Shown here piece by piece: positions 56,571 to 58,450 of a stretch of DNA of 64,000 nt. This DNA comes from Marivita lacus. GTDB lineage: Bacteria; Pseudomonadota; Alphaproteobacteria; Rhodobacterales; Rhodobacteraceae. The notes under the pieces are model-generated. The model ran no database searches and was not told where the DNA came from. It saw only the letters and a list, made by a program, of their open reading frames with translations. Positions within the stretch are counted from its first letter, which is position 1; every line of letters begins with the position of its first letter. The DNA is taken from contig NZ_BMFC01000005.1 in NCBI RefSeq assembly GCF_014637725.1, positions 62,001-126,000 on the forward strand, given 5' to 3'. Position numbers and translations under genes: made by a program.

Positions 56571-58133
56571 TCAGGTCACATCCCGATACGAGATTTCCTT
56601 GACGTCCTTGCCGGTCTTGCCGCGCCGCACGATCAGCCGGTTCAGCGCGTGGATATAGGCCTTGGCCGAGGCCACAACCGTATCCGTGTCCGCCGACTGG
56701 CCGGTGGCGATCATGCCGTCCTCTTCCAGACGCACGCTGACCGTGGCCTGTGCATCGGTGCCCTCGGTCACCGCGTGCACTTGGTACAGCTGCAACCGCG
56801 CCTTGTTCGGGTGCAGCATGCGGATTGCCTTGAAGGTCGCATCGACAGGGCCGTCGCCTTCGCACACGGCCGACATATCCTCGCCGTCTATCTCCATTTC
56901 AAGCGTCGCCTCCGCCGGGCCGCCGGTGCCGCAGACCACCTTGAGGTTCACAAGCTGCAACGCATCGTCGCCTTCGGTCGTCGCGGTGACAAGCGCGAGG
57001 ATATCGTCGTCGAACACCTCTTTCTTGCGGTCAGCCAGATCCTTGAAGCGGACAAAGATGTCCTTGAGCTGGTTGTCGCCCACCTCGGTGCCCAGTTCCC
57101 GCAGCTTGGCGCGCAGCGCGGCGCGTCCCGAATGCTTGCCCAAGGGCAGCGACGTACCAGAAAGGCCCACATCCTCGGGGCGCATGATCTCGAAGGTCTC
57201 TGCGTTCTTGAGCATCCCGTCCTGATGGATGCCGCTCTCGTGCGCAAAGGCGTTCTTGCCGACGATGGCCTTGTTGAATTGCACCGGAAAGCCCGACACG
57301 GTCGCGACGCGGCGCGAAATGTGCATGATCTTCTTGGTGTCGATGCCGGTCGTGTAGGGCATGATATCGCCCCGCACCTTGAGCGCCATCACCACCTCTT
57401 CCAGCGCGGTATTGCCCGCACGTTCGCCCAACCCGTTGATCGTGCATTCGATCTGGCGCGCACCGCCCTGCACCGCCGCCAGAGCATTGGCTGTCGCCAT
57501 GCCAAGGTCGTTGTGGCAATGCGTGGCGAAAATCACCTCATCCGCATCGGGCACGGTCTCGATCAGACGGCGGATCAGATCGGCGCTTTCCACCGGCGCG
57601 GTATAGCCCACTGTGTCGGGAATGTTGATCGTGGTGGCCCCTGCCTTGATGGCGATCTCCACCACCCGGCACAGGTAATCCCATTCGGTGCGCGTGGCAT
57701 CCATCGGGGACCATTGCACGTTGTCACACAGGTTGCGCGCGTGGGTCACGGTCTGCTCGATCCGGTCCGCCATCTCGTCCTGCGTGAGGTTCGGAATGGC
57801 GCGGTGCAGAGGCGAGGTGCCGATGAAGGTGTGGATACGCGGCTGTTTGGCGTGTTTGACCGCCTCCCAGCAGCGGTCGATATCGGGCAGCTGCGCGCGA
57901 GCCAGCCCGCAGATCACCGCCGACTTTGAGCGCTGCGCGATCTCGCTCACCGCGCGGAAATCGCCTTCGGAGGCAATCGGGAACCCGGCCTCGATGATGT
58001 CGACACCCATGTCGTCCAGAAGCTCGGCGATCTCGAGCTTTTCGTCATGGGTCATGGTTGCGCCGGGGGATTGTTCGCCGTCGCGCAAGGTGGTGTCGAA
58101 GATGACCACTCGGTCTTTATCTGTCGTCGTCAT
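56571..58133 (-). CDS. leuA: 2-isopropylmalate synthase
   Basis: 520 residues. RDGEQSPGATM near the N-terminus, the metal-binding HxH in FATHCHNDLGMATANAL, HESGIHQDGMLKN in the linker, and a C-terminal regulatory domain (~390-520) that binds leucine in the family. First committed step of leucine synthesis: acetyl-CoA plus 2-oxoisovalerate. Preceded at 58166..58300 by a leucine-rich leader frame and alternative hairpins, so it is probably attenuated as well as feedback-inhibited. Confidence 0.97.
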   Translation of the reverse strand: MTTTDKDRVVIFDTTLRDGEQSPGATMTHDEKLEIAELLDDMGVDIIEAGFPIASEGDFRAVSEIAQRSKSAVICGLARAQLPDIDRCWEAVKHAKQPRIHTFIGTSPLHRAIPNLTQDEMADRIEQTVTHARNLCDNVQWSPMDATRTEWDYLCRVVEIAIKAGATTINIPDTVGYTAPVESADLIRRLIETVPDADEVIFATHCHNDLGMATANALAAVQGGARQIECTINGLGERAGNTALEEVVMALKVRGDIMPYTTGIDTKKIMHISRRVATVSGFPVQFNKAIVGKNAFAHESGIHQDGMLKNAETFEIMRPEDVGLSGTSLPLGKHSGRAALRAKLRELGTEVGDNQLKDIFVRFKDLADRKKEVFDDDILALVTATTEGDDALQLVNLKVVCGTGGPAEATLEMEIDGEDMSAVCEGDGPVDATFKAIRMLHPNKARLQLYQVHAVTEGTDAQATVSVRLEEDGMIATGQSADTDTVVASAKAYIHALNRLIVRRGKTGKDVKEISYRDVT

Positions 58134-58165
58134 TGTTCTGATCTTTCTGTCTTGTCCAAATCCGT

Positions 58166-58220
58166 CGGCGCGAAACGATCATCCTCTGAGCGGTCGCGCC
58201 GGGTGCGCCGCGCTCAGAGG
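58166..58220 (-). promoter_or_regulatory. leuA attenuator: two mutually exclusive hairpins
   Basis: Reading the minus strand, hairpin A is CCTCTGAGCG (58220..58211) with CGCTCAGAGG (58192..58183), a perfect 10 bp. Hairpin B is CGGCGCGA (58201..58194) with TCGCGCCG (58173..58166), a perfect 8 bp. The 5' arm of B lies in the loop of A and the 3' arm of A lies in the loop of B, so only one can form. The leader stop codon is inside the 5' arm of A. A stalled ribosome at the leucine codons would leave A free (read-through); a ribosome at the stop would block A and let B form (termination). The T tract after B is weak (ATTT). Confidence 0.72.
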
Positions 58221-58300
58221 CGGATTAGGAGAAGACGGGTGGCCAGCGCAAGAGGCGCGCAAAAGCGCGGCAGGGTTGCGGTATGGGCCAGACGTGTCAT
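58214..58300 (-). CDS. leucine-rich leader peptide of leuA
   Basis: A 28-residue frame from the ATG at 58300 to the TGA at 58214..58216. Eight of 28 residues are leucine, ending T-R-L-L-L-I-R-L-stop. The terminal run uses CTT CTC CTA, codons less favoured than CTG in this GC-rich genome. A minus-strand TATAGT (58313..58308) ends only 7 bases before the ATG, so transcription may begin at or next to the start codon, that is, a leaderless leader peptide; no ribosome binding site is visible. The remaining frame upstream is not needed and runs into the glyA terminator. Confidence 0.72.
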   Translation of the reverse strand: MTRLAHTATLPRFCAPLALATRLLLIRL

Positions 58301-58345
58301 GGGCGCGACTATACGTGGCAAATTTCGAAAGAAAAGCCGCTTGAG

Positions 58346-58376
58346 AAAAAAAGACGCCCCCGGCATCGGGAGCGTC
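58346..58376 (-). terminator. intrinsic terminator of glyA
   Basis: On the minus strand a 10-bp stem GACGCTCCCG/CGGGGGCGTC (one mismatch, ATGC loop) is followed by seven T residues (58352..58346). It lies between glyA and the leuA leader and isolates leuA transcription from glyA. Confidence 0.88.
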
Positions 58377-58426
58377 CTGTTCTTCTTAGGTTTGAAAATA
58401 CCTCGGGGGTTTGGGGGCTGGCCCCC
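58374..58426 (-). repeat. Rhodobacterales-type intergenic repeat, copy 2
   Basis: Minus-strand copy of the element at 10633..10683: hairpin GGGGGC-CA-GCCCCC, then AAACCCCCGAGGTATTTT and AGAAGAACAGGAC. It lies between the glyA stop and its terminator, so it is part of the glyA 3' untranslated region. Confidence 0.75.
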
Positions 58427-58450
58427 AAGAGTTTCCGTTAACGGCAACTC

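Follow-up and report, generated by a model that had tools for sequence, protein, structure and literature searches.

The attenuator of the enterobacterial leu operon, represented in Rfam by the family Leu_leader, is of the terminator type and, like the leader described here, places a Leu-coded leader peptide upstream of leuA. The E. coli leu leader peptide is reported to be 28 aa long (PMC6123439), which is also the length found here. A different arrangement has been published for the LEU element of actinobacterial leuA, which combines a Leu-run uORF upstream of the gene with a pseudoknot, a base stem in which the Leu codons pair with the leuA Shine-Dalgarno sequence and an alternative hairpin built on that same base stem (PMC1262725). 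The authors of that account cite Streptomyces coelicolor mutants inconsistent with classical attenuation, and the sections of it that were available mention neither a terminator nor a leaderless start (PMC1262725). Among the alphaproteobacteria, trpL/peTrpL of Sinorhizobium meliloti is described as a leaderless leader-peptide sORF starting at AUG, as is proposed here for leuA, but it senses tryptophan, acts through transcription attenuation that releases the sRNA rnTrpL, and has another leader sequence (PMC7298713, PMC10117765). The uORFC-8-2 motif upstream of cysS shares with our leader the order Rhodobacterales, tandem sensor codons and, according to its authors, a ribosome-mediated mode of action; it differs in its two stems plus U run, interpreted as an intrinsic terminator, and neither a pseudoknot nor a base stem is described in the available part of the report (PMC8632094).

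The leader upstream of leuA in a 64,000-nucleotide stretch of Marivita lacus DNA (hereafter the window) resembles in its layout the actinobacterial LEU element more closely than it does a trp/leu-type terminator attenuator. Judged by sequence comparison, leucine control of leuA in many Alphaproteobacteria appears to use a conserved pseudoknotted leader and not a terminator of the enterobacterial kind. A similar layout was reported in Actinobacteria, where the mechanism was left open, and here the sensor codons, the stop codon, the pseudoknot and the putative leaderless start all fall within about 170 nt. Such a system offers a way to examine the coupling of leaderless ribosomes to transcription, and whether a biosynthetic gene can be gated by a stalled ribosome in the absence of a terminator. 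The leader, unlike the enterobacterial one, matches no Rfam family: above the gathering threshold of Rfam 15 the window gives only two tRNAs, far from the leader, six of the loci give none, and positions 58100-58340 give nothing up to an E-value of 5. The portions of the literature that were available held no description of an alphaproteobacterial leuA pseudoknot leader. Two attenuator surveys, reportedly by Vitreschak et al. in 2004 (FEMS Microbiol Lett) and by Lopatovskaya et al. in 2010 (Mol Biol), may list it.

In the window glyA precedes leuA, and a terminator-like hairpin downstream of glyA separates that gene from the leuA promoter. The leader region has a fold z-score of -3.25, with 0 of 200 shuffles equally stable. 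Its features, in the direction of transcription, are as follows.

58351-58378, minus strand: terminator-like hairpin with a T tract, 3' of glyA and before the leuA promoter (terminator scan)
58331-58335, minus strand: -35-like TTTTC of the leader promoter (T at 0.91 and 0.88 at -35 and -34 from the ATG in 95 aligned leaders)
58308-58313, minus strand: -10 box TATAGT, 7 nt before the leader ATG, which would place the transcription start at or next to the AUG (sequence, comparison)
58214-58300, minus strand: leader ORF of 28 codons with ATG at 58300, a TGA stop at 58216-58214 and the end RLLLIRL; product MTRLAHTATLPRFCAPLALATRLLLIRL, eight Leu (reading frame; Leu-run sORF in relatives)
58280-58285, minus strand: CATACC, local copy of the AUG-anchored CATA motif, +16 to +21 (leader comparison)
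58226-58234, minus strand: Leu codons CTT CTC CTA, the putative sensor run (sequence, codon counts)
58221-58236, minus strand: C5, upstream strand of helix C, which takes in the Leu codons (fold, permutation test)
58211-58220, minus strand: A5, 5' arm of hairpin A, holding the TGA stop (pairing, covariation)
58194-58201, minus strand: B5, pairing with B3 in a pseudoknot; part of it can pair instead with the upstream inner strand A' (covariation, loop analysis)
58183-58192, minus strand: A3, 3' arm of hairpin A (pairing, covariation)
58166-58173, minus strand: B3, 3' strand of B (pairing, covariation)
58149-58164, minus strand: C3, downstream strand of helix C, its end 15 nt away from the leuA ATG (fold, permutation test)
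56571-58133, minus strand: leuA, 2-isopropylmalate synthase (Pfam HMGL-like and LeuA_dimer domains)

A preliminary description of this DNA had pointed to the 28-codon frame with its eight leucines, to a perfect 10-bp hairpin A whose 5' arm contains the leader stop codon, to a perfect 8-bp hairpin B, to a distance of 14 bases between the first codon of the Leu run (58234) and arm A, and to the TATAGT ending 7 bases before the leader ATG. All of these are present on the minus strand, with 10/10 pairs in A (CCTCTGAGCG at 58220-58211 with CGCTCAGAGG at 58192-58183) and 8/8 in B (CGGCGCGA at 58201-58194 with TCGCGCCG at 58173-58166). The roles and relationship assigned to A and B did not hold up in the same way, as set out below.

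A search at E 1e-150 detected the gene itself in 194 of 198 Rhodobacteraceae genomes. Loci for comparison comprised that of the window, 30 from the family search, 80 from named genomes (a few of them from other families) and 60 fetched by coordinates; those with a recognisable leuA start, leaving out L104, L002 and sequence duplicates, made up 163 distinct loci. A script identified a Leu-run sORF upstream of leuA in 142 of these, and in 18 of the remaining 21 the covariance model R1 recovered the element with E-values of 1.1e-4 or better, so that the retention of the Leu-rich frame in relatives, a check named in the preliminary description, is borne out. R1 gave a weak match in L109 (E 0.47) and found no element in L100 and L171; some of the script's misses arise because the fetched stretch is cut off or the Leu run is shorter. 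Run on the genome that contains the window, with E-values up to 10 allowed, R1 yields two hits, the leader itself at 78.1 bits and, at 18.5 bits, the antisense of that site. The stop codon is TGA in 142/142 script-found leaders, a choice that the script did not demand, and the A5 context CCTCTGAGCG is kept in 121/142. Leucine stands at codon -4 in 142/142 leaders and at codon -6 in 139/142, figures that partly reflect selection, the script having favoured Leu near the end; codon -4 is CTT or CTA in 139/142. CTA accounts for 19.6% of the Leu codons among the last nine leader codons as against 0.9% in leuA. The leader is thus conserved, coded for leucine and enriched in the rare codon CTA.

Covariation in the two hairpins was another check that had been named, and compensatory changes occur in both. 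In a MAFFT alignment of 89 leaders (L110 being left out of 90 references), A and B show standard pairs in 98.0% of cells, compared with 30-58% in slid controls. Doubly changed cells number 32 against a shuffled mean of 4.3, a value reached in 0/500 shuffles, and the covariation score is 0.115 against 0.063 in shuffled alignments (0/500); pairs showing any double change number four, a count that 31/500 shuffles attain. One B pair is C-G in 72 sequences and U-A in 11. Counting against our preferred explanation, B lacks a standard pair in 5/89 sequences at one pair and in 6/62 at another. The loop of A contains the 5' strand of B, whose 3' strand follows downstream, so that the two helices cross in the topology of an H-type pseudoknot, with loop lengths of 8 nt for L1 in 51/89, 2 nt for L2 in 82/89 and 7-10 nt for L3 in 82/89. 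A and B, which had been taken as mutually exclusive, therefore need not exclude one another. The competitor of B is rather the inner stem A', in which the GGCGC strand pairs upstream with TGCC instead of with B; taken pair by pair, it is possible in 83 to 89 of the 89 sequences (85/85 at one pair), and it shows no double changes in this alignment. A5, A3 and GGCGC are very highly conserved in sequence. In pairing and topology, the crossing and covarying A and B, the loop lengths and A' together match the pseudoknot with alternative hairpin of the LEU type.

The assignment of A as antiterminator and B as terminator fares less well. Between the leader stop and leuA the longest T run is at most 3 in 124 of the 142 loci, 4 in 16 and 5 in 2, so that runs of at least 4 occur in 18/142 and a U tract, taken as a run of at least 5, is absent in 140/142. 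A scan of positions 58050-58450 of the window places minus-strand terminator-like sites only after glyA and none in the leader. Since neither a conserved U tract nor a terminator match is found there, and A and B cross, these roles are unsupported, and the GC-rich stem followed by a U tract that defines the intrinsic terminator of a trp/leu-type transcription attenuator is missing. A classical attenuator, in which ample leucine would lead to the release of polymerase after B, nevertheless draws on several properties of the leader: A5 contains the stop, which matches the classical scheme, B is rich in GC and covaries, and the Leu run is separated from A5 by 17 nt in 64 of 96 leaders, by 14 in 17 and by 20 in 13, distances that suit a stalled ribosome leaving A free. 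Given the shortage of T runs, the ability of the scan to detect the post-glyA terminator while detecting none in the leader, the presence of a U run in the cysS attenuator described for the Rhodobacterales (PMC8632094; only part of that report was available) and the existence of a further helix for which a terminator attenuator offers no explanation, we regard this reading as decidedly unlikely.

That further helix, C, forms part of the minimum-energy fold and was absent from the earlier reading: GTCTTCTCCTAATCCG at 58236-58221 pairs with CGGATTTGGACAAGAC at 58164-58149 in 14 of 16 positions. The last 12 nt ahead of A5 were matched against the tail preceding leuA in the 119 of 142 loci whose stop and leuA are 60-100 nt apart; the longest helix averages 6.35 bp, against 4.48 bp with shuffled tails and 4.96 bp (sd 0.10) with tails permuted among species (0/300). 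A helix of at least 6 bp is found in 78/119 loci, and in those 78 the 3' end of C3 lies at a median of 19 nt before leuA. The other 41/119 loci have no contiguous 6-bp C helix, which counts against our preferred explanation, and when C is scored over the whole 21-nt region before A5 the signal is weaker, the own tail exceeding the best of 20 shuffles in 42/142. Synonymous changes of Leu and Ser codons are matched by changes in C3, as in TCCTAA/TTAGGA, TCTTAGCC/GGCTAAGA, CTACTAAGC/GCTTAGTAG and TTCTTACGCT/AGCGTAAGAA. These comparisons support a third conserved helix, in which the Leu codons would pair with sequence ahead of leuA. With that median distance of 19 nt to leuA, C3 mostly does not cover the Shine-Dalgarno sequence, in contrast to the published LEU base stem, which is described as pairing with the leuA Shine-Dalgarno sequence itself (PMC1262725).

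In 8 of 15 inspected loci missed by the script an extra ORF lies between the element and leuA (L042, at 2629-2985, and L009, L012, L020, L040, L056, L066 and L153). It is 118 aa long in seven of the eight, was read by eye from a GTG in L066, and has a cupin domain in the one case tested. Inspection by eye showed a C3-like segment (TTAGGA, CTAAGGA or similar) just before the start of the interposed ORF, resembling its Shine-Dalgarno sequence; by eye, too, it is mainly where another ORF comes first that C3 contains a Shine-Dalgarno-like segment. The closeness of C3 to the first gene, together with the matching segment before the interposed ORF where there is one, suggests control of translation.

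The leader thus combines a conserved Leu-run ORF with alternative structures that overlap the sensor codons and the stop, as expected of a ribosome-mediated attenuator: the stop lies in A5, C5 extends over the Leu codons, and A' and B compete for GGCGC. We consider it somewhat more probable than its negation that this is a ribosome-mediated leucine sensor which works without an intrinsic terminator, on a leaderless transcript, by means of the pseudoknot and the base stem C, with leuA translation as its most likely output; Rho-dependent or unconventional termination is a less likely output. Transcription would start at or beside the leader AUG, as the position of the promoter suggests, and a ribosome would initiate on the leaderless mRNA. 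The RNA past the Leu run would fold into the H-type pseudoknot of A and B, or alternatively into A with A', closed by the base stem C; comparison supports each of the helices A, B and C, and we infer that they can form at the same time. When leucyl-tRNA is scarce, the ribosome would stall on CTT-CTC-CTA and occupy C5, so that C would be open, A could form and leuA would be expressed. When charged leucyl-tRNA is plentiful, the ribosome would reach the stop in A5, which it would cover, and then leave, whereupon the closed structure would reform and leuA expression would be lowered. Free of ribosomes, the RNA is likewise predicted to close into A with B or A' within the base stem C.

Folding with the ribosome footprint masked was carried out for 96 of the 142 loci (46 being dropped for distance, a weak -10 box, a short leader or the lack of a run), by a method beyond whose reach pseudoknots lie. 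The openness of C3 rises from 0.37, in the free and sham-masked RNA alike, to 0.55 with a stalled ribosome, and is 0.59, slightly higher, with a ribosome at the stop. Stalling does not open the Shine-Dalgarno region of leuA in these 96 loci (0.64 sham against 0.67, p 0.41). As the Shine-Dalgarno region stays as it was and C3 is more open at the stop than at the stall, masked folding alone gives no leucine switch. Read-through by frameshift from the leader into leuA was also considered and rejected, the two alternative frames being closed in 103/142 and 108/142 loci.

The missing U tract is compatible with Rho-dependent attenuation, in which the ribosome would leave at the stop when leucine is plentiful and Rho would terminate transcription in the region left untranslated, a stalled ribosome or the folded state blocking Rho. 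The same idea has been offered, in the available part of the LEU report, to explain cys operons of Actinobacteria in which a leader peptide comes with no obvious terminator (PMC1262725). We think such a mechanism unlikely here, as just 60-99 nt, much of it structured, separate the stop from leuA in 119/142 loci, and as Rho does not account for the C3-like segment before the first gene where that gene is not leuA.

A leaderless start of the leader is supported by the position of its promoter in relatives. A match of at least 5/6 to the -10 box is found 3-12 nt before the ATG in 83/96 leaders, as against 4/96 shuffled sequences and 6/96 sequences before the leuA ATG, and the distance peaks at 7 nt; in the larger set 123/142 leaders have such a match, all ending 6-9 nt before the ATG, although, where several in-frame ATGs were available, the -10 match helped to decide between them, so that these counts lean towards leaderless starts, and the shuffled and leuA controls were scored with no such choice. 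No Shine-Dalgarno match of at least 4 precedes the ATG in 107 of those 123 leaders. The transcript would begin at or beside its own AUG, and the suggestion in the preliminary description that the mRNA may start at the AUG itself gains support from the promoter position in these 123 of 142 leaders. An E. coli-type promoter scan of positions 58050-58450 of the window did not list the leader promoter. Outside the family, none of the starts checked among the loci L253-L270 has a 5/6 -10 match at leaderless distance, and leaderless leaders may be a peculiarity of the Rhodobacteraceae. Trp leaders were considered as a second leaderless example and set aside: in 30 Rhodobacteraceae trpE loci (L174-L203) no convincing leader with two adjacent Trp codons was seen, unlike in S. 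meliloti trpL.

Anchored to the same AUG is a CATA motif. Exactly at +16, 79/123 leaders have CATA with T, C or A as the next base, compared with a downstream rate of 22 in 21,247 positions, and of 89 CATA copies 84 are in frame and 79 exactly at +16. The distance of the motif to the AUG has a variance of 0.91 and that to the -10 box one of 1.17, which speaks against its being placed by the promoter. Nor is the encoded H-I purely a constraint on the peptide, to judge by the His codons: at codon 6, of 116 leaders 75 have CAT and 7 have CAC, whereas in leuA CAT occurs 727 and CAC 875 times, and it is this bias which argues that the nucleotides of CATA matter. A role as a general leaderless signal was rejected as well, the motif being absent (by eye) at +16 in nine recognised cysS leader ORFs. 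Pairing of CATA with the leuA start region is borderline, 17/300 permutations reaching the observed value, and no pairing is indicated with the tail (236/300) or with the A/B region (193/300); helix C, as positive control, gave 0/300.

At an E-value of 0.01 R1 matches 18 of 289 genomes of the class, 4 in the family and 14 in other families, and in all 18 the leuA motif lies downstream. The strict pattern CTNCTHNNNYGCCYCTGAGSG matches 10/289 class genomes (reversed control, 1 match) and, in a sample of the phylum, 23/249, made up of 10/14 in the family, 11/53 in the rest of the class and 2/182 outside the class (reversed control, 1); the genome counts for R1 and for this pattern are lower bounds. 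In all 18 loci fetched from the CTNCTHNNNYGCCYCTGAGSG matches (L253-L270, including that of the window and neither of the two outside the class), the leuA motif follows the leader stop at a distance of 119-478 nt. Leu leaders from other families finish with LLL(L)xRP or xCP; their A5 usually reads CCCCTGAG and faces CTCAGGGG or a variant of it.

These distant leaders bear on the proposal that the element is a riboswitch-like leader which binds a protein or metabolite, the Leu-rich ORF being incidental or secondary. The very high sequence conservation of A5, A3 and GGCGC would suit such a binding site, and the authors of the LEU element, in the part of their account that was available, propose a binding protein and cite Leu-codon mutations that misfit classical attenuation (PMC1262725). 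A Leu-ending ORF, however, precedes leuA in other families of the class too, with a different sequence ahead of the run, if we set apart three loci there (L242, L243 and L250) that end merely in L-R-L and not in a Leu run; moreover, the Leu codons vary synonymously, C3 along with them, and the rare CTA is enriched in the leader. A riboswitch-like leader of this kind is hence highly improbable.

A wider form of the ribosome-gated reading, which we put forward tentatively as the less probable side of the question, is that the leader represents a class-wide, terminator-less alphaproteobacterial counterpart of LEU, in which the ribosome would serve as the ligand and, sitting on a strand of the base stem, open or close a switching H-type pseudoknot. 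In the Rhodobacteraceae this device would be leaderless, with CATA at +16 perhaps aiding the loading or pacing of ribosomes, and it would be either ancient and shared with the Actinobacteria or convergent.

Two smaller observations concern the stop codon and leaders of cysS. TGA is the stop in all 142 leaders, yet four of the 14 other-family loci carry a different stop in the arm, TAG in L240 and L248 and TAA in L246 and L249; in L240, L246 and L248 the 3' arm was seen by eye to have changed such that stem A still pairs. Upstream of cysS, the loci L213, L215 and L230 have Cys/Ile-rich leaders (for example MKTTCIIICCISC) with the -10-like sequences TATCAC, TATCGT and TATCGT respectively, each a 5/6 match 7 nt before the leader ATG, and these cysS leaders may be leaderless too.
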